Positions 8,981 through 55,429 of a DNA stretch of 64,000 nt are shown one piece after another. The stretch spans positions 1 to 64,000 of the forward strand of contig JAFDGW010000018.1 of NCBI GenBank assembly GCA_019309115.1, in the 5' to 3' direction. Under the pieces are notes generated by a model. The model saw nothing but the letters and a program-made list of their open reading frames with translations, searched no databases and was not told the origin of the DNA. How positions within the stretch are numbered: the first letter of the stretch is position 1; each line of letters opens with the position of its first letter. Origin of the DNA: Deltaproteobacteria bacterium (GTDB taxonomy: Bacteria > Desulfobacterota > Syntrophobacteria > Syntrophobacterales > Thermodesulforhabdaceae). The position numbers and the translations under genes were made by a program.

Positions 8981-10243
8981 TCAGATTTCGAAGCCGAAGA
9001 AATTGGATATCAAATACCCTAATCGCTTTCGTAAAACGGAATACGAAAAGTGCCTCAGTGCCAATTCGTAGTTGTAATCCACCGTTTCAGAACACTTGCC
9101 GGGATCTTCCAGTAGCTCCCTTACTTCTTCAACCACCCTGTCGGTTATATATCCGTTCATGACAACAAACTTGAATCCCAACGGCTCTATGTCTCTTATG
9201 AATACATCATAGCGATTCACCAGTATCGGTTTTCTGAAGTAAATCGCCTCTAAAAGTGCATTTCCGAATCCTTCGTACAAGCTGGGATAGGTTACAAAGT
9301 CTGCGTTGGGGTAAACATCCCAAAGTGAATACCTCTTTTTACCATCGGGTCCAACACCTCTACGATCTCCCACGAAGGTGTCAATTATTTTAAGATCTAC
9401 TTCAAGGTCTTTGGCATATTCCTGTAAAAACTTGGCGTATTCATAACCTTCGTCTCCGGCAGGGTGAGTTACAACCAGTTTGTACTTAGGATTTCTCAAA
9501 GCACGTACCAAATCAATAGCCAGTTCAATACCTTTGCGCCTTACGACGCGAGTGGGCTGAAGGATAATCTTGTCATCTTCACCTATGCCAATCTCGGATC
9601 GAAAGTCCTTTATGAAATCCCAATCTATTTCCGGTTCATGTTCAAAATCCAGCACATTCGGGATTACCATAGATGATATACCGGTCCTGAGTGCTAGTTC
9701 TTCTTGGGCGATGGAGTTTATGACGACGTGTTGTATATTTGGCAATTTCGGAGGGAACGCCATTTGAATGTAGTCTTGTACGGCATTTACGGCGTATCGA
9801 GTCCGTTCCCAGTAAAAATCGTGGTGGTGAGCTACCGTTGGAATGGCCGTTTCTGCAAGCAGCTCAGTGATGGCCAGCGCAAGCGGAACATGCATGGGTA
9901 AGCTGAGAGCATTTTGTATAATGAGAAGGTCAATGTTGAATTTTGCGATAAATTCGTAAAGCTTTATTTTGAGATAATCCCTGAGTGCGTGAATCCTCCC
10001 TGTTACGTAGGGAGAACGCACCTGTTTTCCGAAGATTCTATCGTTTATCCACCTGTTTTCCTCGTGGTCGAAAAATGCTTCAGGTACTTCCATACTGACT
10101 GAAGCGTGCCTGTCCAGAACACCCGCAAACCAGTATGATATATGCTGGTGGTCCCACAATAGTTGAGCCCATTTGGCGGATTCGAGAGAAACGCCATCAG
10201 TTCCGGCAAACCTTGTGGAAACGAATCCAATATTCTTTCCCAT
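8981..10243 (-). CDS. Glycosyltransferase, GT4-like
   Basis: The 420-residue protein opens GKNIGFVSTRFAGTDGVSLESA, an N-terminal GT-B nucleotide fold. Its C-terminal half has the GT4 donor-site pattern: LQPTRVVRRKGIELAIDLV (about 240), DFVTYPSLYEGFGNALLEA (about 332-350) and the EX7E-type acidic pair YEGFGNALLEA. It would transfer a sugar from a nucleotide-sugar donor. I do not recognise a specific acceptor. Compatible-solute synthases such as mannosylglucosylglycerate synthase belong to this type and are a possibility, given the inositol-solute gene elsewhere in the window. GGGAGGG lies 7 bases before the ATG. Confidence 0.82.
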   Translation of the reverse strand: MGKNIGFVSTRFAGTDGVSLESAKWAQLLWDHQHISYWFAGVLDRHASVSMEVPEAFFDHEENRWINDRIFGKQVRSPYVTGRIHALRDYLKIKLYEFIAKFNIDLLIIQNALSLPMHVPLALAITELLAETAIPTVAHHHDFYWERTRYAVNAVQDYIQMAFPPKLPNIQHVVINSIAQEELALRTGISSMVIPNVLDFEHEPEIDWDFIKDFRSEIGIGEDDKIILQPTRVVRRKGIELAIDLVRALRNPKYKLVVTHPAGDEGYEYAKFLQEYAKDLEVDLKIIDTFVGDRRGVGPDGKKRYSLWDVYPNADFVTYPSLYEGFGNALLEAIYFRKPILVNRYDVFIRDIEPLGFKFVVMNGYITDRVVEEVRELLEDPGKCSETVDYNYELALRHFSYSVLRKRLGYLISNFFGFEI

Positions 10244-10342
10244 CCGTTCGCCCTCCCTGAATCTATTATCGACAAAACCATTTTACAGGCTAAATAGTTT
10301 GTGTAAAGCATTTGGCCGATCTTCGATGGGGGAGATAATGAT

Positions 10343-11398
10343 ATGTCGAAGTGGACTGCAAAATCACTTTGCGATTACATAAGTAGCAGGCCAGAACTGC
10401 TAGCCGTTACAAAGAAGTACCCTTTTCGTATTACATCTCACGTGGCGAGCTTGATTAAACATCCCGGCGACCCCTTATGGCTTCAATTCGTGCCAGATTC
10501 TAGGGAACTGGAAAATGATGGCGGCTACGAGGATCCGCTTGGAGAGGAAAGCCTATCACCCCTTCCAAATCTGGTGCATCGTTATCCTGATAGAGTGCTG
10601 TGGATTGTAACTTCAGAGTGTGCTGCTTACTGCCGTTTTTGCACGCGAAAAAGGCTATGGAATAAGAAGGTGCACATAGATCAAAGATCCATCAGAGATG
10701 TGGTGGAATACTTGAGACATAACAAAAGAATTAGCGAAGTACTCGTATCGGGAGGTGACCCATTACTCATAAGGACGACCAAGCTCAGAGAATTTTTTTC
10801 AGCGATTCGCCGTGTAAAGCACATAAGTGTTATAAGGGTAGGCACACGTTTGCCAATTGTGAGTCCTCAAAGCATAACAAGAAAAAAAATGGACCTTCTT
10901 AGAGAATTTCAACCTCTTTATGTTATGCTTCATATCAACCATCCGTCTGAGCTCAACGACCCTGTTTGCGAGGTTCTAAGCAGAATGGCCGATTGTGGTA
11001 TTCCCATGGCAAGCCAGACCGTGTTGCTCAGAGGCGTAAACGACCGAGCGGAAATTTTGCGTGAACTCTTCGTAAAATTGTTGGCACTTCGCGTGCGTCC
11101 TTACTATCTGTTACAGGCAGACCTTATGAAGGGTACGTCCCACTTCCGTGCGCCTATAAGTGAAGGATTACGCATTATGTTCGAACTCAGGCACCGCACT
11201 TCGGGATTGGCGATACCTCATTACATGGTGGATTTGCCGGAGGGTGGTGGAAAGATTGAGTTAACACCGTCTTTCATCGAGGCTGTTTGCGAGAATAGAG
11301 TGATTTTCAGAAACAGGTTGGGAAAACCTGCTTTTTATCCGCTTTTTCATGGAGAAAAGAGAGTTTTAAGGCGATTACTTCTTCCGCGCCTTGAATGA
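10343..11398 (+). CDS. KamA-family radical SAM protein (lysine 2,3-aminomutase-like)
   Basis: The 351-residue protein has CAAYCRFCTRKR (about 94-105), the CX3CX2C cluster that binds [4Fe-4S] and SAM. Its C-terminal motif LPEGGGKIELTPS matches the PLP-lysine loop GGGGK of lysine 2,3-aminomutase. It is shorter than clostridial KamA (about 416 residues). It may be a genuine lysine 2,3-aminomutase feeding beta-lysine or N-acetyl-beta-lysine osmolyte synthesis, or an EpmB-like enzyme for EF-P; no partner gene nearby decides this. It is divergent from the glycosyltransferase, with GGGGGAGA before the ATG. Confidence 0.85.
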   Translation: MSKWTAKSLCDYISSRPELLAVTKKYPFRITSHVASLIKHPGDPLWLQFVPDSRELENDGGYEDPLGEESLSPLPNLVHRYPDRVLWIVTSECAAYCRFCTRKRLWNKKVHIDQRSIRDVVEYLRHNKRISEVLVSGGDPLLIRTTKLREFFSAIRRVKHISVIRVGTRLPIVSPQSITRKKMDLLREFQPLYVMLHINHPSELNDPVCEVLSRMADCGIPMASQTVLLRGVNDRAEILRELFVKLLALRVRPYYLLQADLMKGTSHFRAPISEGLRIMFELRHRTSGLAIPHYMVDLPEGGGKIELTPSFIEAVCENRVIFRNRLGKPAFYPLFHGEKRVLRRLLLPRLE

Positions 11399-30466: not shown

Positions 30467-31009
30467 ATGACTGTTCCCAACATCCTTACGGTCATAAGGA
30501 TATTATTAACGCCCCTGCTCGTCTGGCTCCTTCTGGACGGTAGGATGTCATCAGCGCTTTGTGTTTTTTTTGTGGCCGGAGTTACCGATGGCCTTGACGG
30601 ATTCATAGCCCGAACATTTAATCAAAAGTCGCGGCTTGGAACGTACCTTGATCCCCTGGCGGACAAACTGCTCTTGGACACCACTTTCATACTTCTGGCT
30701 TACCTTCACATCATTCCAACATGGCTAACTATTATTGTAGTCAGCCGCGATGCTATAATAGTATTGGGAGTATTTTTGTTTTTTCTGAACCACATTTATT
30801 TCGAAGTTAAACCCTCCTTACCGAGCAAGCTTACCACACTGAGCCAGATCCTCACAGCTCTTGTTGCCCTGAGTTCGTCCCTATGGAATCCGCACTGGTT
30901 TTTGCTGAGTTTTATTTTTACAGTTACAGCAATTTTTACTATCGTAAGTGGCTTGCATTATATTTACCACGGATTTCGAATATGGGAATCCGAGCGTGTG
31001 GAGGATTAG
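30467..31009 (+). CDS. pgsA: CDP-diacylglycerol--glycerol-3-phosphate phosphatidyltransferase
   Basis: PgsA makes phosphatidylglycerol phosphate in the inner membrane. The 180 residues carry the full CDP-alcohol phosphotransferase signature: DGLDGFIARTF, then G in RLGTYLDPLADKLLLD (about 42-70). Hydrophobic spans follow. It starts MTVPNILTVIRILLTPLLVW, the standard N-terminus. The ribosome-binding site is weak and the preceding gene ends 5 bp before. The next gene, lpxK, starts inside its 3' end. Confidence 0.93.
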   Translation: MTVPNILTVIRILLTPLLVWLLLDGRMSSALCVFFVAGVTDGLDGFIARTFNQKSRLGTYLDPLADKLLLDTTFILLAYLHIIPTWLTIIVVSRDAIIVLGVFLFFLNHIYFEVKPSLPSKLTTLSQILTALVALSSSLWNPHWFLLSFIFTVTAIFTIVSGLHYIYHGFRIWESERVED

Positions 31010-32093
31010 GGCTTATTTCAACAGTGTTCTTTCTAAATGGTGGTACTCTGCGCCACTTTTGCCACCGGTTGCTGGTGCGTTAAGCCTTCCGACTAGGGCC
31101 GTTAACGAAATTATCCAAAGATTGGCTGGTTTAAACGTAGTTGAAGTTCCCGCTTTGGTGGTTGGAGTAAGTGGGTTGGTAGTGGGAGGAGGGGGCAAGA
31201 CGCCTTTTACCATCTGGCTTGCCGGTGAACTGGCCGATGTTGGGGTAAAGACTGTCGTCGTGCACGGAGGATATGGTCGCAGGGTGAGTGTGCTGGCCCG
31301 AGTCGTGGATACTGAAGATTATGAAGGCGCTTTTCGCGTCTTCGGAGACGAAGCGGTTTTGATTTATCGTCGTCTAAATTCAACCGGTCCTGAGCGCGTA
31401 CCGGTGTGGGTAGGTCCCAAATGGATGGCTGCGGCTATGGCCTGTGGTGTTGACCGACCGGATGTGGTGATAGTTGACGATGCAGGTCAGCACCGAAGGC
31501 TCAAGAAAAACATGGAAATTATGGTTTTTAATCTTGAATCACCTTGGGGAAATGGTTCCCTTGTTCCATTTGGCCCTTTGAGGGAGCCCCTTTCGGCTGT
31601 CGGAAGGGCTCGGTTCGCTGTATGCACTGGAATTGATAGTTTTCGTTTTCCTGAAACGGTTTGCGTCCTGAAGCGCTTCTTGCACGACGGTGTCAGTGTA
31701 GTGCTTGCCAGAAAAAGGCCAGCGCAGTTCGTTATGGGGGATACATTTTATCCTGCGTCTTTTTTAGAAGATCGCAAAGTGGTGGCTTTTGCTGGAACTG
31801 CTAGACCTGAAGGTTTTTTCCGCCTTCTTAAACTCTGTGGTGCTGTGCTGAAAGGTGTAGTTTCTTTTCCGGACCATTATCCGTATTCTGGACGAGACAT
31901 AGCTGTATTGGCCAAGCGGGCAGAGCAATCCGGTGCAGATCTTCTCGTCTGTACCGAGAAAGATTATTGTCGTGTGCCCGTTTCTTGGCAGAATAAGGTT
32001 GGTTATGTAACCATTGATCTGGATTTTGGGGAGTGGAATAGTGATGTAAGAAAGAATTTGATTGATGCAATTGTTTCGAGGGTCAAGAAATGA
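30996..32093 (+). CDS. lpxK: Tetraacyldisaccharide 4'-kinase
   Basis: LpxK adds the 4'-phosphate to the lipid A precursor at the inner membrane. VVGVSGLVVGGGGKTPFTIW (about 56-75) is the P-loop, diverged from the usual VGNLTVGGTGKTP. VVHGGYGRR and DDAGQHRRLKKNMEIMVF (usually DDGFQHRRL) follow. FPDHYPYSGRDIA and LLVCTEKDYCRV near the C-terminus are typical. I favour the GTG at 30996, giving 365 residues and a start near the conserved WWYS helix, overlapping pgsA by 14 bp; the ATG at 30948 is possible. The two odd motifs make it a divergent LpxK. Confidence 0.88.
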   Translation: MWRIRAYFNSVLSKWWYSAPLLPPVAGALSLPTRAVNEIIQRLAGLNVVEVPALVVGVSGLVVGGGGKTPFTIWLAGELADVGVKTVVVHGGYGRRVSVLARVVDTEDYEGAFRVFGDEAVLIYRRLNSTGPERVPVWVGPKWMAAAMACGVDRPDVVIVDDAGQHRRLKKNMEIMVFNLESPWGNGSLVPFGPLREPLSAVGRARFAVCTGIDSFRFPETVCVLKRFLHDGVSVVLARKRPAQFVMGDTFYPASFLEDRKVVAFAGTARPEGFFRLLKLCGAVLKGVVSFPDHYPYSGRDIAVLAKRAEQSGADLLVCTEKDYCRVPVSWQNKVGYVTIDLDFGEWNSDVRKNLIDAIVSRVKK

Positions 32094-33394
32094 CGCATCT
32101 TCCGGCTATCTTGAGGATATTTATAATCTTTGCGTTGGTCCTTTTTGCCATCAGAAAGAATGTTGCCCTTGGTCATGTCTTTACGGGATCTGCCATCGTG
32201 TTGGGATTTTTATTTGGCATGGATCCCGTACACCTTGGTGTTGCCGCTTTTCATGCCCTTACCCATCCTAAAACGTTAGCACTTGCCTGCGTGGTCTCTC
32301 TTATACTGGTCCTCAGCCACAGCATGGAAAAAGCGAAGGAGATGGAACGCTTGCTCGAAGCCTTCAGGGGAATTATAGGAAACCCTCGGTTAAACGTGGT
32401 TATTTTCCCCGCCCTGATTGGGCTGTTGCCGATGCCGGGAGGAGCAATTTTTTCTGCTCCCATGGTTAAAAATATTGGAGGCCGCTTTGGCCTGACGCCT
32501 CCCCAGCTCAGCTATATCAACTATTGGTTCCGCCACATCTGGGAATACTGGTGGCCTCTTTATCCAGGAATTTTGCTGACAACGGCTCTAGCAGGCATTG
32601 ATCTGTGGAAGTTTGTGTTATCTACATTGCCTCTCACCGCCGTTGCCGTTTTTATTGGTTATCGGACATTAAAGTTTGGAGGTTTGAGGGAACAATCGTC
32701 TTCTGCAAATTTAGCGCACTCTACGCCCCTTCGCCCTTTTCTGGTAAGGCTCATTCCCATTGCAATAGTAATAGGTGGTGGGCTCGGGCTTGGAGCTATT
32801 TTCAATTATACTATGTCGGGAGAAATTCAAAAGATTTCTAGGGAGTTGGGACTAATTGTTTCCCTTTGCTGTGCCATTGCTTTCGTATGGATTAAGAGCA
32901 GGTTCCGCCTGACCGAATGTGTTGCCATTTTGACCACGAAGCAGCTCGTAAGAATGTTCTACATGGTTTGTTCCATTCTCATATTCAAAGGCATTCTTCA
33001 GGAAAGTCAGGCGGCGGAAGCCATAACCCGCGAACTTCTTGCTTTACACATACCGCTCATTTCCGTCTGTGTAGTGCTTCCTTTTTTGATGGGCATGATC
33101 ACGGGGATTACCGTGGCCTTCGTGGGAACCACCTTTCCTATTATCATTGCGCTGGTTCAGAACCTTGGAGAGAGCCAGTTCCTGTTGCAGTATCTTATGC
33201 TATCGTTGGTTAGTGGCTTTGTAGGGGTTATGTTATCACCGGTACACCTCTGCCTTTTGCTGTCCAATGAGTACTTTCAAACCACCATGCCGCCAGTTTA
33301 TCGGTACCTGCTGATGCCCTGTTCAGTAGTTTTAATCTTCGCTCTGTCCTATTTTGAAGTTCTGCGCCTAGGGTTTGCTTTTCTTAGGTCGTAA
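32090..33394 (+). CDS. DUF401-family integral membrane protein
   Basis: The 434-residue protein is hydrophobic throughout, with about 10-12 membrane spans. It has the motif LLPMPGGAIFSAPMV (about 110-124) and a FRHIWEYWWPLYPG stretch, which I associate with the DUF401 family. That family resembles gluconate/lactate-type permeases, but its substrate is unknown. It overlaps lpxK by 4 bp (ATGA). It is probably the last gene of the pgsA-lpxK run, since a 96-bp gap follows before the Hsp70 cluster. Confidence 0.78.
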   Translation: MTHLPAILRIFIIFALVLFAIRKNVALGHVFTGSAIVLGFLFGMDPVHLGVAAFHALTHPKTLALACVVSLILVLSHSMEKAKEMERLLEAFRGIIGNPRLNVVIFPALIGLLPMPGGAIFSAPMVKNIGGRFGLTPPQLSYINYWFRHIWEYWWPLYPGILLTTALAGIDLWKFVLSTLPLTAVAVFIGYRTLKFGGLREQSSSANLAHSTPLRPFLVRLIPIAIVIGGGLGLGAIFNYTMSGEIQKISRELGLIVSLCCAIAFVWIKSRFRLTECVAILTTKQLVRMFYMVCSILIFKGILQESQAAEAITRELLALHIPLISVCVVLPFLMGMITGITVAFVGTTFPIIIALVQNLGESQFLLQYLMLSLVSGFVGVMLSPVHLCLLLSNEYFQTTMPPVYRYLLMPCSVVLIFALSYFEVLRLGFAFLRS

Positions 33395-33490: not shown

Positions 33491-34318
33491 ATGGCGGAAA
33501 AGCGTAGGTGGTTGTGGCAGTCCTTTCTTGTGTGTTTTATTTTTAATGCAATCCTTGCAGTAGCTTTGTTCTGGCCGTTTCGTGAGGGACTAAAGGTGGT
33601 TTCTTCTTACTTGGAGCCACTTCTTAGCAATGCAGACTTGAAAGCACAGTTACCGAAAGAAGTCATGCTTCTTATTACTAACCTTCAGGATCTGGTCATC
33701 ATGACGGAAAAGTATGCAATACCAGCCATCTTTGGGGCTGTCGGAACCGTAACGCTCGCTATGTGGATTGTTATCGCCTTGGTCGGCGCGAAGCGAATTG
33801 AAGCTGCTGCTAAAGGGCCGTTAACACCGGAAAAGCCCGACAGAGACAGAGAAGAAAGAGTAGAAGAAAAGCCTGTTAAAAAAGCGGAAAAGGTTGATGA
33901 GCGACGTCGCTTGCTCCCGGCCGTGCAGTTTATTGCGCTTATGCAGAGGGAAGGCCGTTTTGTTGATTTTCTGAAAGAAGATATTTCGTTGTATGAAGAT
34001 TCTCAAATAGGTGCTGCCGTTCGAACATTGCATGATGAGTGGCGCAAGATTTTCGACGAACACGTTAAGGTGGAGCCTGTTTACTCGGAGGTTGAAGGAA
34101 CGGAGGTTGTGATTGAAAAAGGTTTTGATCCTGTGGCTATTCGCCTTACGGGGCGAGTATTGGGTGATCCACCTTTTAAAGGCATAGTCAAGCACAGAGG
34201 TTGGCGGCTTGTGAGGATAGAGCTTCCTCAGATGGTTGATCCAGATAGGGATGATCTCGTTCTTGCGCCGGCAGAAGTAGAAGTTCAACAACCTTCAGAA
34301 GGAGGTGATTCGGCTTGA
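33491..34318 (+). CDS. DUF2760 membrane-anchored protein
   Basis: The 275-residue protein has two membrane spans, at about 11-30 (FLVCFIFNAILAVALFWPF) and 75-97 (YAIPAIFGAVGTVTL, then AMWIVIALV). A charged linker rich in Lys/Glu follows (about 100-138), then a cytosolic domain (about 140-275) with LPAVQFIALMQREGRFVDFL, VRTLHDEWRKIF and GVRLTGRVLG-like sequence (AIRLTGRVLG). I recognise the last part as DUF2760. The gene starts after GGAGG, and its stop overlaps the TTG start of the first Hsp70. Anchoring the Hsp70s to the membrane or handing them substrates is a reasonable guess, not established. Confidence 0.82.
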   Translation: MAEKRRWLWQSFLVCFIFNAILAVALFWPFREGLKVVSSYLEPLLSNADLKAQLPKEVMLLITNLQDLVIMTEKYAIPAIFGAVGTVTLAMWIVIALVGAKRIEAAAKGPLTPEKPDRDREERVEEKPVKKAEKVDERRRLLPAVQFIALMQREGRFVDFLKEDISLYEDSQIGAAVRTLHDEWRKIFDEHVKVEPVYSEVEGTEVVIEKGFDPVAIRLTGRVLGDPPFKGIVKHRGWRLVRIELPQMVDPDRDDLVLAPAEVEVQQPSEGGDSA

Positions 34319-36114
34319 GTTCAGAAGCTAAATACGTAGTTGGTATTGACCTTGGGACGACTCACTGTGTCGTTGCCTACGCTCCCATAATGGCCGAAGG
34401 TGAAAAGCCCAACATCCGCATATTTGAAATCCTTCAAATAACCGCTCCGAACGAAATGCGATCCCTCTCGTTACTTCCCTCTTTCTTGTATCTTCTTGGA
34501 AAGGGGGACGTTGATCCATCGAGCGTGAGGTTACCCTGGCAAGAAAGTGTGTTTGCGCTGGTTGGTAGTTTTGCAAGGAAGAGGGGTTCCGAGGTTCCTC
34601 ATCGCCTTGTTGCTTCGGCCAAGTCCTGGCTTTGCCACAGCGGAGTAGACAGGACAAAGCCCATACTTCCATGGAATAGCCCGGACGAGGTTCAAAAAGT
34701 TTCGCCTGTCGAGGCGTCGTCCATGTTTCTCGAGCATGTACGCGATGCGTGGAATCATACCATAGCAGCGAACGATCCCGAAGCCAGGCTAGAAAATCAG
34801 GATATTCTCATAACCGTTCCCGCATCTTTCGATGCTGTTGCACGGGAACTAACCGTTCAGGCAGCTCGACTGGCGGGTTTTGAACATTTTACACTTCTGG
34901 AGGAACCTCAGGCGGCTTTTTATGCTTGGATAGAGGCAAACGAGGACAACTGGCGGAATCTGGTAAAACTTGGTGATTCCATTCTGGTGTGCGACGTTGG
35001 TGGAGGTACTACGGATTTCAGCCTGATTGAAGTTTCCGAAGAAGACGGAACGCTCGCTTTGAAGCGCGTTGCAGTTGGGGAGCACATACTACTGGGCGGG
35101 GATAACATGGATCTGGCCCTTGCCTACACTTTGCGTCACAAAATTTCGGCGCGTCTTGACGATTGGCAATTTCGCGCACTCTGGTACCGTGTCCGCAGCG
35201 CCAAGGAAAGGCTTCTTTCCGATCCTGATCTTCAAAAAGAGCCAGTTGTTATTCTCGGACGAGGCACATCCCTGATTGGGGGCACCATAAAAACTGAGCT
35301 GACCCGCCGAGAAGTCGAAGAAATTCTGGTGGACGGGTTTTTCCCCATGTGTGATCTTTCGGACCGTCCCAAACGTACATCTCGAGTTGGCATGCGCGAG
35401 ATGGGGCTTCCTTACGAGGAAGATCCGGCCATCACACGTCATCTTGCCCACTTCGTGAGTCGTCATCTGGAAAGGTTGCCTTCATTCCCGTCGGCTGTTC
35501 TGTTCAACGGTGGCGTAATGAAGGCCGAACAGTTTCGTGGGAGAATTATTGATCTTTTGCGTTCTTGGGGTGGTGAAGGTGAGGTTCGTGAACTTTCTTT
35601 TGCGGATCTAGACCTTGCCGTTGCCAGAGGGGCCACCTATTACGGTTTTGCCCGCAGAGGACGTGGTGTCAGGATTAGAGCGGGAGCATCGAGATCCTAT
35701 TACATTGGAGTGGAAAGTGCTATGCCGACGGTTCCGGGTGTTCCAACGCCAATGAAGGCACTTTGTGTTGTACCTTTCGGGATGGAAGAGGGAACCACGG
35801 AGGAAATTAAAGAACGGGAGTTCGGATTGGTTGTTGGTGAGCCGGCGGTTTTTCATCTACTTTCGTCAACGATAAGACAGGATGATAGAGCAGGCGAGGT
35901 TGTTGAAGACTGGGAAGGTACCATCGAGCCGGTTGGCACTATGGAGACGGAGTTGCCTGCTACAGAGGAGGAAGCTGGGGGGACAGTTGTGCCGGTATGG
36001 CTTGAGTCAGCCATGACGGAAATCGGAACGCTTGAACTCAGGTGTGTTGACGTGATTAACCCGGAGAGAAAGTGGAAGCTGGAGTTTAACCTGAAGGAAA
36101 GAGAAGCGAAATAA
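34315..36114 (+). CDS. Hsp70-family protein, first of a tandem pair
   Basis: This 599-residue Hsp70 relative starts at a TTG (34315) with AGGAGGTGA upstream, overlapping the DUF2760 stop. Phosphate loop 1 is GIDLGTTHCVVAY (about 10-22). The DnaK Lys-70 region becomes SAKSWLCH, keeping the Lys. LEEPQAAFYAW supplies the catalytic-base Glu, and VCDVGGGTTDF the second phosphate loop. The conserved DnaK linker (VLLLD) and following VTPLSLG are absent; RGVRIRAGASRSYYIGV stands there instead. A shortened C-terminal beta part remains, but no helical lid. It is probably an active ATPase with an unusual substrate end. Confidence 0.88.
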   Translation: MSSEAKYVVGIDLGTTHCVVAYAPIMAEGEKPNIRIFEILQITAPNEMRSLSLLPSFLYLLGKGDVDPSSVRLPWQESVFALVGSFARKRGSEVPHRLVASAKSWLCHSGVDRTKPILPWNSPDEVQKVSPVEASSMFLEHVRDAWNHTIAANDPEARLENQDILITVPASFDAVARELTVQAARLAGFEHFTLLEEPQAAFYAWIEANEDNWRNLVKLGDSILVCDVGGGTTDFSLIEVSEEDGTLALKRVAVGEHILLGGDNMDLALAYTLRHKISARLDDWQFRALWYRVRSAKERLLSDPDLQKEPVVILGRGTSLIGGTIKTELTRREVEEILVDGFFPMCDLSDRPKRTSRVGMREMGLPYEEDPAITRHLAHFVSRHLERLPSFPSAVLFNGGVMKAEQFRGRIIDLLRSWGGEGEVRELSFADLDLAVARGATYYGFARRGRGVRIRAGASRSYYIGVESAMPTVPGVPTPMKALCVVPFGMEEGTTEEIKEREFGLVVGEPAVFHLLSSTIRQDDRAGEVVEDWEGTIEPVGTMETELPATEEEAGGTVVPVWLESAMTEIGTLELRCVDVINPERKWKLEFNLKEREAK

Positions 36115-36123
36115 TCGGGTAAA

Positions 36124-38976
36124 ATGAAAGAAACGAGCGGAACAGAAGATTGGTCATTCAGGTTTGTTATCGGCATTGATCTGGGGACTACAAATTCTGC
36201 AGTTGCTTTCGTTGATCTGGCCGATGAGCGCAGACAAATAAAGATTTTTAAAATTCCGCAGGTGGTTTCGCTTGGAGAAATTGCCGAACGATCTCTGTTA
36301 CCATCTTTTCTTTATCTCCCTGGGAGTTACGAGGTTCCACTCGACCAGTTGCGCCTTCCATGGAAGCAGAATGTTCGGGATGTGGTAGGTGAGTTTGCCC
36401 GTGAGCAGGGAGCACTTGTTCCAGAGCGTTTGGTTTCATCTGCAAAGTCCTGGCTATGTCATGCTCGAGTGGACAGAAAAGCCCCGATTCTTCCGTGGGG
36501 AGTCAGTGGCGATGACGTGAGAAAGGTTTCCCCTGTAGAAGCCAGCGCCAAATACTTGGAGCACATACGGGAATCATGGAATTACGTCGTAGCCCGTGAT
36601 GACGATGAGCTTCGCTTCGAAGAGCAATTGATAGTCCTGACCGTGCCGGCTTCATTTGACGAGGTGGCCAGGGAACTTACCGTTGAAGCGGCTCGGATGG
36701 CCGGCATACCTAAATTAGTACTTCTGGAAGAGCCTCTTGCTGCTTTTTATGCGTGGTTGAGCCGCCACAGGGATAATTGGCAGGAGCAGCTTCAAGCAGG
36801 TCATGTGATTCTTGTGTGCGATGTGGGTGGTGGAACCACCGACTTTACGATAGTTGCGTTTCGGGAAGGGGAAAAAGGGCTTCGATTTGATCGCCTGGCA
36901 GTAGGAGAGCATCTTCTGCTGGGTGGAGACAATATGGATCTTGCCATAGGAAGACACGTTGAGATTGGGCGTTTTGGCAAAGCCGGAGCACTAGATTCCA
37001 AGCAATGGCATCAATTATGTCATCAATGTCGAAAAGCGAAGGAGCAGTTGCTGGAAAACCCGGATATAGAAGCGGTTAAGGTCACTGTGGTCGGACGTGG
37101 CACTAGACTCATTGGAGATACTGTATCGGTAAACCTGTCCCGGCAAGAGGTTGAAGATCGCATCATAGAGGGATTTTTCCCCTTTTGTAACCTTGACGAT
37201 GAATTGAAAAGCTCTGGGAGATCGGGACTTACCGAGTGGGGGCTACCTTACGTACAGGATCCTGCTATAACTCGCCATCTTGCTTCGTTCTGGCGTAGGT
37301 TTGAGGATTTCCTCAAATCCGAAGTAGGTAGGAAAGATCCTTACCCAGATTTTATTCTGTTCAATGGTGGTGCACTGGCTCCGGCGGTTATAAGGCGAAG
37401 ACTTCTTAATGTCGTGGGAAGCTGGTTTGAGGACCGTGCCGGTAAAGGATGGAAACCGGGGGAACTCCACAATCCGAAGCCCGATTTGGCCGTTGCTTTC
37501 GGCGCCGCTTACTACGGCATGGTGCGCCTTGGGTTTGGAGTTCGTGTTGGGGCTGGCACGCCCAGGAGTTACTACGTGCAAGTGGACAGCGGTCAGGATG
37601 ATGACGGTGGTATGGTTTACCGCGGGGTTTGCATTGTCCCAAGAGGTTCGGAGGAAGGTTTTGAGGCTGAACTCCGGAATCATGACTTTCAGGTCATCAC
37701 TAACAGGCCGGTAGCTTTTCAGGTGCTCTGTTCAACGACGAGGCTGGAAGACAGACTGGGAGATGTAGTTGATCTGCCCGATGGCGAAGTGACTCCTCTG
37801 CCACCAATTAGGACCGTCTTACGTTTCGGAAAGAAAGGGGTAACGCAGCAAATACCGGTTACTATTGCATGTCAGTTATCTGAAGTCGGAACACTTGATA
37901 TTTGGTGTAAGTCCCTAAAAACACCTCATAAGTGGAAGCTCCGGTTTGATGTCAGACAACATGCGGACACGGAAAAGCGATCAATTCTGCCCGGCGAAAT
38001 CTTTGATGAAGAGCTTTTAAATGAGGCGTCAAACCTAATAAAGAACGTCTTTACGGGTGGACATTCAGAAAAACGTTTGGATCCAGACGCTTTGGTAAAA
38101 CATCTCACGGAGCTCTTTGGTACACCGCGTGAAAAGTGGTCGCTTCTGGCGATTCGCAAATTGGCCGACACTCTCTTGGGTGTGGCGGAAGGTCGTAAAC
38201 TTACCTTTCGCCATGAAGCACGATGGTTGAACTTGCTTGGATTTTGTATGCGTCCCGGCTACGGAGATCCTGTTGACGAGTGGCGCATAAGGCAGATCTG
38301 GAGGATATATCATCAAGGGTTGAGTTATCATCGGCAGCCAATGTGCCGTCTTGAGTGGTGGATATTTTGGAGGAGGGTTGCCGGAGGATTGTCGGCTGGG
38401 CAGCAGCTTCATGTTTACCAACAGCATTCGGCTTATTTCCAACATGGAGAAACTAAGGGCAGAAAAAAGGCTAGGAAGTTGAATTCACAGGAGATAACTG
38501 AATTCTGGATGGCTTTTGCCAATTTTGAGCGGCTTCCTGTAGAGGTTAAAGTTCTGCTGGGACGTAGAATGCTAGATCGAGTACTTTCACAGAAAAAACC
38601 CCGCCATCAAGATCTATGGTCTTTGGCTAAGCTTGGAGCTAGAATTCCTCTTTACGGGCCCATTGACAGGGTTGTTTCGGCTGACGAGGTTATGAAATGG
38701 ATATCCGCATTGCTGGATAAAGCTGATGAACTGGAGGCTGTATGTGTAAGACCTATAGTACACATGGCGCGTTTGACAGGGGATAGAGCGAGAGACCTTC
38801 CAGAGGATTTTAGAAGAAGGATTTACGAAACCTTGCTAGGATTGGAGGATGACGATAAGCTGAAGGTGCTTTTTAAAGAACCGTCGGAAGAATTGAGTCT
38901 TCAGGAACAGGAGTGGGCCTTTGGCGAATCCCTGCCGTCAGGGCTTGTGCTTGGGGAAACCAACCAGATAAAATGA
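36124..38976 (+). CDS. Hsp70-family protein with C-terminal DUF3731-like extension
   Basis: The 950-residue paralogue starts 9 bp after the first. It has [13 protein letters not shown] (about 18-30), SAKSWLCH, LEEPLAAFYAW and VCDVGGGTTDF. It also lacks the VLLLD linker, having GFGVRVGAGTPRSYYVQV instead. After about residue 620 comes a 330-residue helical region (LLNEASNLIKNVFTGG, WSLLAIRKLADTLLG, QIWRIYHQGLSYH, WWIFWRRVAGGLSAGQQ) that I associate with DUF3731. The pair with DUF2760 is conserved in relatives as far as I recall; function is unknown. It may act as the second half of a heteromeric chaperone machine. Confidence 0.88.
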   Translation: MKETSGTEDWSFRFVIGIDLGTTNSAVAFVDLADERRQIKIFKIPQVVSLGEIAERSLLPSFLYLPGSYEVPLDQLRLPWKQNVRDVVGEFAREQGALVPERLVSSAKSWLCHARVDRKAPILPWGVSGDDVRKVSPVEASAKYLEHIRESWNYVVARDDDELRFEEQLIVLTVPASFDEVARELTVEAARMAGIPKLVLLEEPLAAFYAWLSRHRDNWQEQLQAGHVILVCDVGGGTTDFTIVAFREGEKGLRFDRLAVGEHLLLGGDNMDLAIGRHVEIGRFGKAGALDSKQWHQLCHQCRKAKEQLLENPDIEAVKVTVVGRGTRLIGDTVSVNLSRQEVEDRIIEGFFPFCNLDDELKSSGRSGLTEWGLPYVQDPAITRHLASFWRRFEDFLKSEVGRKDPYPDFILFNGGALAPAVIRRRLLNVVGSWFEDRAGKGWKPGELHNPKPDLAVAFGAAYYGMVRLGFGVRVGAGTPRSYYVQVDSGQDDDGGMVYRGVCIVPRGSEEGFEAELRNHDFQVITNRPVAFQVLCSTTRLEDRLGDVVDLPDGEVTPLPPIRTVLRFGKKGVTQQIPVTIACQLSEVGTLDIWCKSLKTPHKWKLRFDVRQHADTEKRSILPGEIFDEELLNEASNLIKNVFTGGHSEKRLDPDALVKHLTELFGTPREKWSLLAIRKLADTLLGVAEGRKLTFRHEARWLNLLGFCMRPGYGDPVDEWRIRQIWRIYHQGLSYHRQPMCRLEWWIFWRRVAGGLSAGQQLHVYQQHSAYFQHGETKGRKKARKLNSQEITEFWMAFANFERLPVEVKVLLGRRMLDRVLSQKKPRHQDLWSLAKLGARIPLYGPIDRVVSADEVMKWISALLDKADELEAVCVRPIVHMARLTGDRARDLPEDFRRRIYETLLGLEDDDKLKVLFKEPSEELSLQEQEWAFGESLPSGLVLGETNQIK

Positions 38977-38993
38977 ACTGAGGAGGCAGAGCA

Positions 38994-39182
38994 ATGTGTG
39001 AGGCAAACGCTTATCTGCTGAAGGATAATAGAGAAGAGCTTATTATGGAAGCTGTGGACGTGGTGGAAAACGAAGACGGCCTGCTGAAAATGCGCAATAT
39101 TTTCGGCGAGCAAAAGACGGTGAAAGGCGTTATAAAACGAATGGCTCTTGTGGATCACAAGATTATTATTGAAGAAGCCTGA
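38994..39182 (+). CDS. cooT: CooT-family nickel-binding protein
   Basis: The 62-residue protein begins MCEANAYLL and continues with MEAVDVVENEDGLLKMRNIFGEQK and MALVDHKIIIEE, the family pattern of CooT. In Rhodospirillum rubrum CooT is a small dimeric Ni(II)-binding protein for carbon monoxide dehydrogenase maturation, using the Cys near the N-terminus. No CODH gene is in this window. Here it lies 17 bp after the Hsp70 pair with AGGAGG before the ATG, and a terminator-like hairpin follows, so it seems to be the last gene of that operon. Confidence 0.85.
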   Translation: MCEANAYLLKDNREELIMEAVDVVENEDGLLKMRNIFGEQKTVKGVIKRMALVDHKIIIEEA

Positions 39183-39191
39183 AAATAATAA

Positions 39192-39262
39192 GGTGCACCC
39201 AATCCTGACGCATGAACGTTGCGGAGTGGAGGGAAGGGTGCGCCCTGTGTTTTCTTTTTGTT
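39192..39262 (+). terminator. Rho-independent terminator after cooT
   Basis: GGTGCACCC (39192-39200) pairs with GGGTGCGCC (39236-39244) with one G-U, enclosing a 35-base loop that can fold further. A T-rich tract (TGTTTTCTTTTTGTTTTG) follows. It closes the DUF2760-Hsp70-cooT unit. Confidence 0.6.
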
Positions 39263-49403: not shown

Positions 49404-52034
49404 TTATTCTGCCACCACTTCGGCCGTAACGATTGGGATTACGGTCAGTTCACCGTCTTGCATGTCAACCTTGAGGGTTGACCCTTCGGGAACTTCTCCG
49501 GCAATAAGTTCTCTTGCTATTTTGGTTTCAAGGTTGCGTTGTATGTAACGTCTGAGCGGTCTGGCTCCGAAAACCGGATCGTATCCTGACCGGGCAATGT
49601 GTTCTCGAGCTGCTTCGGTCAGCTCCAACACTATACGCCGCTCTTTAAGTCGTTTTGCTATGTCCTGAATCATCAGGTCAACTATTTGTTTAATTTCATC
49701 AAGCGTCAGTGGCTTGAAAAGAACCACTTCGTCAACCCTATTGAGAAACTCCGGCCTGAAATGGCGCCTTAGTTCAGCCATCACCCGTTCTCGGACGTCT
49801 TCTCTTATGTTACCAGAGCTATCAACTCCTTCGAGCAGATAAGTTGAACCGATGTTACTGGTCATGATAATGATGGTATTCTTGAAATCCACGGTTCGGC
49901 CGTGACTATCCGTCAGCCTTCCATCATCCATAATCTGGAGCAGTATGTTAAATACGTCTGGGTGTGCTTTCTCTATTTCGTCGAACAGAATTACAGAATA
50001 GGGTTTACGTCGCACCGCTTCGGTGAGTTGGCCGCCTTCTTCGTAACCTACGTAGCCAGGTGGAGCGCCTATAAGTCGGGACACTGCATGTTTTTCCATA
50101 TACTCCGTCATATCTATACGGATCATGTTTTCTTCGGTGTCGAACAGGGCTTCTGCCAAGGTTTTTGCCAGCTCGGTCTTTCCAACACCGGTAGGTCCGA
50201 GGAAAATGAACGATCCTATGGGTCTTCGAGGATCCTTTATGCCAGCTCGAGCCCTGAGCACTGCATCGGCAACTAGGCGCACTGCTTCGTCCTGTCCGAC
50301 GACGCGCCTGTGCAGCACTTCGTCGAGCTTCAAGAGTTTTTCCCGTTCACCTTCCATTAGCTTAGACACAGGGATGCCGGTCCAGCGGGATACTATCTCG
50401 GCAATCTCTTCTTCTGTAACTTCCTCTCTGAGGAGTTTCTTCCCGCCTTGGATTTCGGTCAGTCTCTTTTCGACTTCTTGGAGTCGAGCCTGCAACTCAG
50501 GGAGTTTTCCGTGCCTGAGTTCCGCAACTTTGTTGAGGTCGTACTGTCTTTCGGCGATCTCGATTTCGCGGTGAACCTTTTCAATTTCCTCCCTCAGAGC
50601 CTGAACCTCTTTGATTGCACTCTTTTCGGCTTCCCACTGAGCCTTCATAGCGTCCGCCTGGGATCTGAGTTCAGCCAGCTCTTTCCTGAGTATTTCCAGT
50701 CGCTCCATGCTAGCCTTGTCTTTTTCCTTTTTCAGTGCTGCTTCCTCGATTTCCAGCTGCATTATGCGTCGCATTACCTCGTCCAGTTCGGCTGGCATGG
50801 AATCAATTTCCGTTCTGATCATGGCGCAGGCTTCGTCAACAAGGTCTATCGCTTTATCTGGTAGAAAGCGGTCAGTAATATACCTGTGGGACAGAACAGC
50901 TGCTGCTACCAGTGCGCTGTCGTGGATTTTGACACCATGATGGACTTCGTAGCGTTCTTTCAGTCCACGCAATATGGATATGGTATCTTCAACACTGGGT
51001 TCTTCCACCAACACGGGCTGGAACCGTCTTTCCAGCGCCGGGTCTTTTTCAATGTATTTTCTGTACTCATCCAATGTCGTTGCACCAATGCAGTGCAGTT
51101 CGCCTCGAGCTAGCATGGGCTTGAGCATGTTCCCCGCGTCCATTGTCCCTTCGGCTTTTCCTGCACCAACGATGTTGTGAACTTCATCGATAAAAAGAAT
51201 AATTCGACCTTCTGATTCTTTAATTTCCTGCAGGACTGCCTTGAGCCGCTCCTCGAATTCGCCACGGTACTTTGCTCCGGCAATAAGGGCGCCCATGTCG
51301 AGGGCGAAAATCGTTTTGTCTTTCAGCCCTTCCGGTACATCTCCACGGACTATCCGGTGAGCTAGACCCTCGACAATGGCAGTTTTTCCGACTCCCGGTT
51401 CCCCTATCAGGACGGGGTTGTTCTTAGTTTTGCGGCTGAGTATGCGTATAACTCGTCGGATTTCAGAGTCACGTCCTATTACTGGATCGAGTTTTCCGCT
51501 TCTGGCTTCCTGTACCAGATCCCGACCGTATTTTTGCAGAGCTTCATAGGTTTGTTCGGGTGTTGCGCTGGTTACACGTTGGTGACCACGCACAGCCGTA
51601 AGGGCTTTCAAGATAGAATCCCTGGTAACACCAAACTGTGCCAAGATTCGCCCTGCTGGGGTGGTTGATCCTTCTTCTGCAAAGGCCAGGAGCAAATGTT
51701 CAACCGATACGTATTCGTCCTTGAGGTGTTTGGCTTCTTCTTCCGCTTTGATAAGCAGCTTGCTGAGCCTCTGGGTTATGTAAACCTTGCCCGGTTCAAT
51801 TCCCGGCCCGCTTACACGAGGACGCTTTTCTAATTCCCTTTCTACTGCATCTCGGAGAGAATCAACAGGCACTTCCATTTTCTGGAGAAGTTTTGGTACG
51901 AGCCCGTCATGCTGTTCCAGCAGAGCCAGAAGCAGGTGCTCTCCGTCAACCTCCTGATGTCCATATTTTATTGCTTTGGTCTGAGCCTGTTGCAAAGCTT
52001 CTTGCGATTTAACGGTGAATTTGTTTATATCCAT
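49404..52034 (-). CDS. clpB: ATP-dependent disaggregase ClpB
   Basis: ClpB is the Hsp100 hexamer that resolubilises aggregates with DnaK. The 876 residues have the N-domain (about 1-145), Walker A GEPGVGKT near 207-214, a coiled-coil M-domain (about 400-530), and the second Walker A GPTGVGKT near 608-615. The M-domain, absent in ClpA/ClpC, makes this ClpB. AGGAGGTG lies before the ATG. It follows cbpM by 16 bp and is the last gene of the dnaK-cbpA-cbpM-clpB unit. Confidence 0.97.
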
Positions 52035-52050
52035 AACGGCACACCTCCTT

Positions 52051-52392
52051 TTATTCTTTCATAAATCGCTTAAGATGCATCTCCAGAACGGAGATGCGTC
52101 TTTCCAGTTCTTCAAGGCGATTTAACAATTCAAGCACTACGCCTATGCCGGCGTAGTTAATTCCCAGGTCGCGCCTTAGCCTAATTATCCTCTTTACAAT
52201 GGGCACGACTTCAGGCGGAAACAACCAGCTTTCGTTCACAGGGTCTCTGTCTGTTGGATCAATCAAGCCGAGCTTCACGAACCGTTCGATGAGCTCGGGG
52301 TGAACTCCGCATATAGACGCCACTTGTTCACACCTTAAATATTTCGTGTAATTAACATAACGAATGGATACCGGTTTACTTCTTTCCGCCAT
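52051..52392 (-). CDS. cbpM: Chaperone modulator CbpM (MerR-like)
   Basis: The 113-residue protein has a MerR-type winged-helix half ([27 protein letters not shown], about 18-44) and a C-terminal coiled coil ([20 protein letters not shown]). CbpM-type proteins bind the J-domain of CbpA and limit its activity with DnaK. GGAGGAACC precedes the ATG. It lies directly between cbpA and clpB, the expected place. A DNA-binding (HspR-like) role is an alternative, because HspR is also MerR-type and sits beside dnaK/clpB in other bacteria. Confidence 0.85.
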
Positions 52393-52403
52393 GGTTCCTC
52401 CGG

Positions 52404-53351
52404 TTATGATCTTGGATTAAAATCAGATACATTCTTAAGTTCTTCAAAAAGCTCTCTTTCTTTCGATGAAAGATGCTTTGGCACCTTTATTTGCACAACC
52501 GCATACAGATCTCCCGGTGTTCCTCTAGGATTGGGCATGCCCTTTCCCCTGAGCCTCAACTTCTGACCGCTCTGGGTGCCGGGTGGAATTCTTACCGTTA
52601 TTGATCCGCCCAGGGTGTCCACGGAAACGTCTACTCCCAATGCCGCTTCCCACGGCGTTACCGGAAGATCCATATAAATATCTCTTCCTTCCAGTCTGTA
52701 CTTTGGGTGTGGTTCTATTTCCACGCGCAGATACAGATCGCCACTTTTCCCACCCCCTATTCCAGGACTGCCCTGACCGGCCAGGCGGATTTTCTGACCG
52801 GGAAGGATCCCTGCCGGAATTTTGACTTCGTAGGTTTTGTTGGTTTGCGGCAGGGTGATAGCCTTTGTAGCGCCATGATAAGCTTCTTCCAGGGTTATAC
52901 GAATTGTTGCTTCCTGGTCTGCTCCATCTCTAACCCACGTGAAGCCACCTCCGGTAAAGGGACCTCGATTCCCATATTTTCGCCTTCCCCGTCCAAAGAG
53001 AAGCTCAAAAAAGTCACTGAATCCCGATTCTCCGCCGAAAAATATATCTTCCACTCCACTTCCACCACCGGTTCCGAAATCAAAGTGGATGTCCCATCCG
53101 GGTGGGGGTCTGAATTCCTGACCGGCTTTCCAGTGGGCACCAAGCTGATCGTATCTTTTGCGCTTTTCCGGATCTTTCAAAACCTCATAAGCTTCGTTAA
53201 TTTCCTTGAACTTTTCTTCAGCTCCGGGTTCCTTGTTCACATCGGGGTGGTACTTGCGAGCCAGTTTGCGGTAAGCCCGCTGGATTTCTTCTTGGGTCGC
53301 GTTTCGTGGTACACCAAGAATTTCATAATAGTCTTTGTATTGCACTCCCAT
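52404..53351 (-). CDS. cbpA: DnaJ-family co-chaperone, CbpA type
   Basis: The 315-residue protein has a J-domain (about 1-75, [18 protein letters not shown], then [19 protein letters not shown] with the HPD motif) and a Gly/Phe-rich linker (about 75-150). Two C-terminal substrate-binding beta domains follow. It lacks the zinc-finger Cys region of DnaJ, so it is a class B, CbpA-like protein. It is downstream of dnaK with a large hairpin between them and upstream of cbpM by 11 bp. Confidence 0.93.
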
Positions 53352-53403
53352 GGCTCTCCGTTACCCTTTTTTAATGAGTATCGAAAGAATGTATTTCTCT
53401 CAT

Positions 53404-53457
53404 TAAGAAGGAGGCTTTGATCCCGTTCGCGTTTGTCGAACGGGCGCCTCCTTCTTA
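53404..53457 (-). promoter_or_regulatory. Large hairpin between dnaK and cbpA
   Basis: TAAGAAGGAGGC (53404-53415) pairs exactly with GCCTCCTTCTTA (53446-53457), and inside it CCCGTTCG pairs with CGAACGGG, giving about 20 bp of stem. On the coding (minus) strand no T-run follows, so it is more likely an mRNA-stabilising, processing or partially terminating element. It would let dnaK be made in excess over cbpA-cbpM-clpB. Confidence 0.65.
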
Positions 53458-53503
53458 GCGTATTTTGAGGAAGCTCCCTTTGCGGGACGCCTTTAAGATC
53501 TGG

Positions 53504-55429
53504 TTACTTTTCAGTGAATTCTGCGTCTATTACATCGTCGGAGCCACCTGAGCCCTGAGTTGATGATCCGGCTCCGCCTGCCTGGGCTTCACTGCCAGAT
53601 CCGGCCTGGTGTTGTGCTCCCGATGCCTGTTGGTAAGCTGCGGCAGCGAGCATATGCAGGGCCTGTTGCAGATCGCCAGCTAGCTGTTTGAACCGCTCGG
53701 TTGTTGTATTTTCGTCGTTTATGGCAGCACGTGCATCTTCTATGAGTTTCTCGCATCTAGCCTTTTCGTTCACGGGCACCTTGTCACCGAGATCTTTCAG
53801 GGTCTTTTCAAGTTGGTACGCCAGGCTGTCGGTCTGATTCCTGGCTTCGACCTTTTCCTTGCGCTTTCTGTCTTCTTCAGCGTACTGCTCAGCCTCCTTA
53901 ATCATCCGCTCAATTTCGCTCTTATCCAGATTCGTGGATTCCGTAATGGTGACGGTCTGCTCTTTGCCGGTTGCCATATCCTTTGCCGTCACCTTCAAGA
54001 TGCCGTTTGCGTCGATATCGAAAGTGACCTTAATTTGAGGTACACCACGCGGTGCAGGTGGAATTCCTTCTAGTCGGAATCTTCCGAGCACCCTATTGTC
54101 CTTTGCCATTTCACGCTCGCCCTGCAGCACTACTATGTCAACGGCCGTCTGATTATCTTCAGCGGTCGTGAAGATTTCTTCACGACGACATGGTATTGTA
54201 GTATTCCTTTCAATCAGTTTGGTCATAACGCCGCCAAGGGTTTCAATTCCAAGGGACAGCGGTGTAACATCGAGCAATACCACGTCTTTGACATCGCCCT
54301 TGATGATTGCCGCCTGAATTGATGCTCCGACGGCCACAACCTCATCAGGGTTTACGCTCATGTTGGGTTCTTTGCCACCGGTTAGACGTTTTACAAGTTC
54401 CTGAACAGCAGGAATTCGGGTCGAACCACCCACCAAGATGACTTCATCGATATCATTCTCGGTCAACCCTGCATCAGCCAAAGCCTGCTTTACGGGGCCC
54501 ATGCACCTTTCAACTAGATCAGCAGTTAGGGCTTCAAATTTAGCCCTGGTGAGTTTCTTTACCAGGTGTTTAGGGCCAGTGGCATCGGCCGTAATAAACG
54601 GCAGGTTGATTTCCGTTTCCATCGTAGATGAAAGTTCACACTTGGCCTTTTCAGCCGCTTCGTACAGCCTCTGCAATGCCTGGCGGTCGTTACGTAGATC
54701 TATTCCCGTTTCTTTCTTGAATTCGTCTGCGAGCCAATCAACTATGCGTTGATCGAAATCATCACCGCCCAAGTGTGTATCACCGGACGTTGCCCTTACT
54801 TCACAGACTCCATCGCCGACATCGAGAATGGATACGTCAAAAGTTCCACCACCCAAGTCGAATACCAGTACAGTCTCGTTCTTTTTCTTTTCTAGACCAT
54901 AAGCCAGCGCGGCTGCCGTTGGCTCATTTATAATTCTGAGCACCTTCAATCCGGCGATTTCACCCGCGTTTTTTGTCGCCTGCCTTTGGGCATCGTTAAA
55001 ATAAGCAGGAACGGTTATGACTGCTTCTGTAATCTTTTCACCCAGGAACTTGGACGCATCGTCCACGAGTTTCCTCAGTACCTGGGCGGATACTTCTTCC
55101 GGGGCGATGAGCTTACCCCGGACTTCAAATCGCACGGCATCATTCGGCCCTTTAACCACTTTATAAGGGACCATTCCAATTTCTGTCTGGACTTCATCCC
55201 ATCTGCGCCCAATGAAGCGCTTAGCCGAATATATGGTTGCTTCGGGATTTAATACAGACTGGCGCTTAGCAATTTGCCCCACCAGCCTTTGGCCATCTTC
55301 TGTATACGCTACAACAGATGGCGTGGTTCTGGATCCTTCAGCATTTTGAATGACTGTCGCCTTTCCGTTTTCCCATACCGCAATAACTGAGTTGGTAGTT
55401 CCAAGGTCGATTCCTACAGCTTTAGCCAT
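53504..55429 (-). CDS. dnaK: Chaperone protein DnaK (Hsp70)
   Basis: The 641-residue canonical DnaK begins [20 protein letters not shown]. It keeps SAKRFIGR (Lys-70 region), [25 protein letters not shown], and the linker [20 protein letters not shown] that the two Hsp70 paralogues at 34.3-39.0 kb lack. The C-terminal lid ends in [14 protein letters not shown], the DVIDAEF-like tail typical of DnaK. AAGGAGGGATATATAGCA precedes the ATG. It heads the reverse heat-shock operon. No grpE is near. I see no CIRCE element upstream. Confidence 0.98.

Follow-up and report, generated by a model that had tools for sequence, protein, structure and literature searches.

Known Hsp70 machines use a hydrophobic linker and J-proteins to couple ATP use to client binding, and in DnaK Arg167 is the contact to the HPD motif of the J-protein. 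Bacteria may contain dedicated Hsp70s such as HscA, HscC and YegD alongside the housekeeping DnaK, and in Hsp110/Sse1 a paralogous Hsp70 with a longer C-terminus occurs beside one of standard length. Here we describe a locus in a stretch of 64,000 nucleotides (the window) in which a DUF2760 gene is followed by two Hsp70 genes, here called HspA and HspB. With DnaK (4jn4, 4b9q, 7kru) the products share the ATPase fold, the catalytic residues and, in the HspB model, an SBD-beta docked on the ATPase domain, but the VLLLD linker, R167 and N170 are replaced, and the lid is absent (HspA) or exchanged for DUF3731 (HspB). The arrangement of a longer beside a standard-length paralogue is reminiscent of Hsp110/Sse1, and the fold match is detectable; however, DnaK is the better fit to the HspB model, and DUF2760, a membrane protein, is the constant partner. 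As with HscA, HscC and YegD, the locus provides dedicated Hsp70s next to DnaK, although HspA and HspB are two tandem paralogues with a membrane protein and are not members of those families by curated cut-offs: the NCBIfam model of HscA, the Fe-S chaperone, gave 81 and 94 bits against a cut-off of 708.55, and PRK11678 was also far below its cut-off.

In Vibrio cholerae, VC1373-VC1375 form a three-gene operon with two genes annotated as DnaK-related (PMC9201469, PMC5816637), and judged by this annotation VC1375-1373 is probably a DUF2760-HspA-HspB unit. The quorum-sensing regulator HapR acts as an activator at the VC1375 promoter (PMC10328515), VC1374 was found among in-biofilm repressed genes in a screen (PMC9201469), and VC1374 transcripts in a vc1639 mutant differ from those in the wild type (PMC5636140). 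A mutant phenotype of VC1373-VC1375 was not found in the literature searched. That search, with subscription journals largely outside it, returned no text naming DUF2760 or DUF3731 and no description of the three-gene unit. The proteins described here are full members of the Pfam families DUF2760 (PF10816) and DUF3731 (PF12531, 'DNA-K related protein'), which carry no function, in agreement with the original prediction that these domains lack a described role.

Layout of the locus

Four genes on the plus strand, in the order DUF2760, HspA, HspB and CooT, occupy positions 33491-39182 of the window (Table 1). The small overlap and short gaps between them bear out the array as it had been predicted, and so does the terminator expected at its end: 3' of CooT a hairpin with a U-rich tail was found (z = -3.35), and equally good folding occurred in 3 of 200 shuffles. 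The hairpin was absent from a simple terminator scan because its loop is longer than the scan allows.

Table 1. Positions of the four genes, the terminator and the surrounding features in the window.
Feature	Position	Strand	Spacing and remarks	Length	Support
PgsA-like, LpxK-like and DUF401 genes	30467-33394	+	directly before DUF2760		
DUF2760 gene	33491-34318	+		275 aa	Pfam PF10816 E 1.6e-44
HspA gene	34315-36114	+	TTG start; 4-bp overlap with DUF2760	599 aa	PF00012 E 1.2e-18
HspB gene	36124-38976	+	9-bp gap after HspA	950 aa	PF00012 E 4.4e-21, PF12531 E 1.7e-81
CooT-like gene	38994-39182	+	17-bp gap after HspB	62 aa	PF10133 E 1.6e-25
Likely intrinsic terminator	39189-39262	+	long stem with internal loops, then U-rich tail		RNA fold -33.1 kcal/mol
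ClpB, CbpM-like, CbpA-like and DnaK cluster	49404-55429	-			

The canonical dnaK-cbpA-cbpM-clpB set reported for this DNA is indeed present on the minus strand of the window, and two full-length canonical DnaK genes were identified in the host genome (G000:C9:83532-85316 and G000:C3:53633-55420). As the window cluster and a second DnaK cover canonical DnaK, HspA and HspB are extra, non-housekeeping Hsp70s.

Homologues of the LpxK and DUF401 genes that lie upstream of DUF2760 in the window precede the three-gene unit in G037, G162 and G187 too, and on a Comamonadaceae plasmid an LpxR-like gene is located at the corresponding place. The LpxK- and LpxR-like neighbours possibly reflect a link to lipid A, and chance may equally be named. 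When neighbours were clustered across the examined loci as a clue to the client, only lineage-specific genes were obtained and a client-revealing stable neighbour gene was not found. IspF-CysS-UvrB/C were lineage-specific neighbours in Desulfobacterales, and an apparent cluster of ABC-F-like neighbours was a mixture of ABC ATPases.

Two Hsp70 paralogues and a membrane protein

HspA and HspB are both members of the Hsp70 superfamily, with PF00012 above its cut-off. They are 46% identical over 606 aa, and the identity of the ATPase domain to that of the window's own DnaK is about 28-30%; an hhalign comparison of HspA with this DnaK gave a probability of 99.2 over the ATPase domain. In a profile search the ATPase domain scored against MreB models too. 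The AF2 model of HspB (pLDDT 85.1, pTM 0.82) consisted of an ATPase part (residues 14-468), a beta-sandwich corresponding to SBD-beta (482-609) and, at the C-terminus, a helical part (629-931). Using Foldseek, the model matched DnaK in docked states (4jn4, 4b9q, 7kru) at an E of about 1e-22, with an rmsd of 5.8 A over 636 columns to 7kru, and also Sse1/Hsp110 (2qxl, 3d2e) at about 1e-18.

The extra helical part of the second Hsp70, put at 330 residues in the original prediction, was recovered as a C-terminal extension of approx. 310 additional helical residues. DUF3731 lies C-terminal to the Hsp70 part at residues 696-943 (PF12531, 274 bits against a gathering cut-off of 25) and, searched alone against Pfam with E up to 10, hit no other family. 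HspA stops after the region homologous to the SBD-beta of HspB and has no helical SBD-alpha lid; in HspB, DUF3731 stands in its place. A complete SBD-beta is thus predicted by the model for HspB and, given the 46% identity of the two proteins over 606 aa, by homology for HspA. An apparent HspA-HspB gene fusion in G092, with an open frame of 1515 aa, was rejected: each gene has its own reading frame, and the surplus comes from an extension that is out of frame.

The equivalents of D8, K70, P143, R151, E171, D194 and T199 (DnaK numbering) were invariant in 51 HspB and 17 HspA sequences, and the ATP-site motifs pointed out earlier in both window proteins are therefore kept throughout these relatives. 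The position of R167 was occupied in HspB mostly by Thr, Val or Ile (Lys in 2, Phe in 1 and Arg in 0 of the 51) and in the 17 HspA by Thr or Val, never by Arg, and that of N170 was always Glu in both sets. The hydrophobic VLLLD linker, which reads VVLLDVTP in the window's DnaK, is absent from HspA and HspB. At its position a conserved GVRVGAGTPRSYY-like segment is found in HspB and a GVRIRAGASRSYY-like one in HspA; as patterns, GVRVGxGSPR or GIRIRxGxxR stands at the matching place, resembling GxRVGxG. The description of these proteins as linker-less is hence correct for the canonical motif, but not in the sense that a coupled substrate domain has been lost, as SBD-beta of HspB is predicted behind the conserved replacement segment and HspA is homologous throughout. 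In summary, the ATPase centres are intact, whereas the J-contact residue, the alpha lid and the hydrophobic linker motif have been lost or exchanged. The HspA/HspB system probably works without J-proteins; the loss of R167 is by itself no proof of J-independence.

The first protein of the array is a clear DUF2760 member (PF10816, 151 bits against a gathering cut-off of 25). Hydropathy placed hydrophobic helices at about residues 12-30 and 80-98 of the window protein and at similar places in 7 relatives, which by sequence makes it a two-helix membrane anchor. The N-terminus and the stretch behind helix 2 carry positive residues, which suggests a cytoplasmic position for both ends. The AF2 model had a pLDDT of 86.5 and, with a pTM of 0.44, low global confidence; it showed a long helical hairpin, a flexible stretch and a C-terminal alpha/beta domain (144-264). 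A fold search of the PDB with this model returned nothing at E <= 0.001 and no likeness to any known co-chaperone.

Gene order and co-occurrence

A scan for DUF3731 over the genomes of 84,980 species turned up relatives in at least 577 stretches, and the gene order was examined in the best 80 named loci. Upstream of HspB on the same strand, DUF2760 was encoded in 43 and HspA in 41 of these best 80 of at least 577 loci, and most of the others end at contig edges. Gaps or overlaps were usually small, the HspA-HspB spacing clustering between -20 and +12 bp. The order DUF2760-HspA-HspB was also seen in Planctomycetota and, among replicons of alpha- and betaproteobacteria, on a Comamonadaceae plasmid, on a conjugative Bradyrhizobium plasmid, where groES-groEL lie downstream of the unit (L192:15854-17898), and on a Burkholderia replicon. 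Rarity of the adjacency in other genomes had been named at the outset as the observation that would speak against a common unit; DUF2760, HspA and HspB were repeatedly found adjacent elsewhere, but CooT was not.

In a sample of 198 Desulfobacterota genomes the presence was sparse (12-13%): DUF2760 was encoded in 25, DUF3731 in 24 and both in 23 genomes (Fisher p about 1e-26, in a test that ignores shared ancestry), and the three genomes with a mismatch had estimated completeness of 62, 67 and 85%. In a second sample, 199 genomes from the phylum of an acidobacterial carrier, the same 5 genomes contained DUF3731 and DUF2760 above the cut-off (p about 4e-10, likewise ignoring shared ancestry). 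Among six further HspB carriers (by title two Chloroflexi, one anammox planctomycete, one KSB1, one Terriglobia and one Kofleriaceae), five also encode DUF2760. Both genes were kept also where they are unlinked: they are 250 kb apart in the single-contig G161, each sits on a long contig of its own in G029 and G155, and their contigs also differ in G066 and G156. Where the two are split, HspA mostly remains next to DUF2760.

HspA was the variable member. HspB comes immediately after DUF2760 in 13 loci, and an HspA orthologue was not found in G134 and G155, both 99% complete. In the tree HspA forms one clade and the HspA-less rows are nested among HspB at several places; therefore HspA has been lost repeatedly. 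We concluded that DUF2760 and HspB are the core pair, that HspA is dispensable in several lineages, and that the three genes are passed on and kept as a set, probably also in transfer between phyla. Gene order and co-occurrence thus support the prediction of a single functional unit in which the membrane protein is combined with two Hsp70s that are not the housekeeping ones and retain their ATP sites. Rows from Chloroflexota, Planctomycetota and KSB1 were placed among Syntrophobacteraceae in both the HspA and the HspB part of the tree, from which the unit has probably been transferred between phyla; the tree is a quick one with several open forks and paralogue splitting, and this reading of it is no proof of transfer.

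Several loci depart from the common arrangement. In L112 (G001) and L097 (G077) several kilobases separate HspA from HspB. An RNase II-like (RNB) gene is located close upstream of DUF2760-HspA where HspB is encoded elsewhere (L087:6803-8818, similar in G029, G156 and G181). At or near the end of a detached HspB a DUF3592 gene begins (L160:4065-4535, L141:10148-10603, L181:3670-3924 and, in G181, L095 at 10066-10563), and the detached HspB may have found another membrane partner in DUF3592. On the Thiodictyon plasmid pTs485 (L194:11318-13836) DUF2760-HspA occurs without HspB and is flanked by anti-phage genes and a TIR-domain gene. A role in anti-phage defence was discarded, as PADLOC matches were negligible and defence genes accompany DUF2760-HspA on one plasmid only. 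A phage origin was rejected as well: DUF3731 had no match in phage records, and the PHROGs matches were unnamed families covering the general Hsp70 ATPase region.

The inclusion of CooT in the unit did not hold, and the assembly of metal enzymes derived from it was not supported. CooT adjoins HspB in all five examined genomes of the window's own family, with gaps of about 15-20 bp, and is probably co-transcribed with HspB there. CooT was adjacent in none of the best 80 of at least 577 named DUF3731 loci and in none of the other CooT loci examined. Among the 198 Desulfobacterota genomes 116 encode CooT, and so do 18 of the 24 module carriers, slightly above the average and not significant (Fisher p = 0.12). 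The module occurs without CooT in G187, and on the Burkholderia and Bradyrhizobium replicons no CooT lies alongside. A chaperone machine that assembles metal enzymes (CODH or nickel) together with CooT, to which the constant adjacency within the family and the slight excess among carriers would point, is very improbable in view of these distributions. CooT is outside the conserved module, a lineage-specific hitch-hiker that gives no clue to its function.

Possible function of the DUF2760-HspA-HspB unit

With moderate confidence we favour a dedicated membrane-tethered Hsp70 system made of DUF2760, HspA and HspB. DUF2760 would hold its C-terminal domain at the cytoplasmic face of the inner membrane, and this domain would recruit HspB, plus HspA where present. 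Standing in for a J-protein or an exchange factor, DUF2760 may both anchor and regulate HspB (and HspA). At the membrane, clients would be captured and released via SBD-beta, driven by the binding and hydrolysis of ATP in HspA and HspB, which probably act as a pair; DUF3731 could serve as a lid or as an adaptor for a client or partner. Contact between DUF2760 and the Hsp70s is predicted from co-inheritance, and a physical DUF2760-HspB/HspA complex, its client and the direction of regulation are likewise putative. Counting against this reading, the HspB gene sometimes lies apart from DUF2760, several lineages do without HspA, and the DUF2760 model, of low global confidence, resembles no known co-chaperone fold. 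Of the membrane-tethered chaperone-like ATPase machine for metal enzymes that had been proposed, the membrane-linked Hsp70 unit is supported and the metal-enzyme task is not.

HspA and HspB could instead be a soluble pair resembling Hsp70/Hsp110, in which one serves the other, or DnaK, as exchange factor; DUF2760 would then be co-regulated without touching them. Two paralogues of 46% identity, one with a C-terminal extension, and the match of the HspB model to Sse1/Hsp110 would fit such a pair, but DnaK structures outscore Hsp110, and the constant pair is DUF2760-HspB and not HspA-HspB, because HspA was lost several times while DUF2760 and HspB were kept. We regard this explanation as unlikely. 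Rather unlikely, too, is a role other than that of a chaperone, with the proteins forming ATP-dependent scaffolds, switches or actin-like filaments at the membrane and DUF2760 as their receptor. The replacement of the classical linker and lid, the scores against MreB models and a membrane protein as the sole constant partner are in line with it; the full SBD-beta predicted to be docked as in DnaK argues against it, and the overall match is to Hsp70 and not to actin-like filament proteins. For a general stress back-up set of chaperones, lacking a specific membrane task, one could cite groES-groEL just downstream on the Bradyrhizobium plasmid, the HapR activation of the VC1375 promoter (PMC10328515) and VC1374 in the in-biofilm repressed screen (PMC9201469). 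The sparse presence in the sampled Desulfobacterota, the strict retention of the membrane partner and the changed J-contact residues point to a special role, and such a back-up set appears improbable.

A tentative extension of the membrane-tethered system is that it represents a new J-protein-free class of Hsp70, in which DUF2760 possibly both activates and anchors HspB, with DUF3731 as a lid of a new type and the conserved GxRVGxG segment as a different element of inter-domain coupling. The ATPase has been left untouched and both coupling devices changed, and the same membrane protein has been kept in many bacteria across several phyla. If the reading is true, the unit would be a second solution to the control of Hsp70 and would give a function to two widespread domains of unknown function. 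It would also offer a simple system for testing which parts are essential. The unit is found in tractable groups, in Burkholderiales and probably in Vibrio, and is thus open to experiment.
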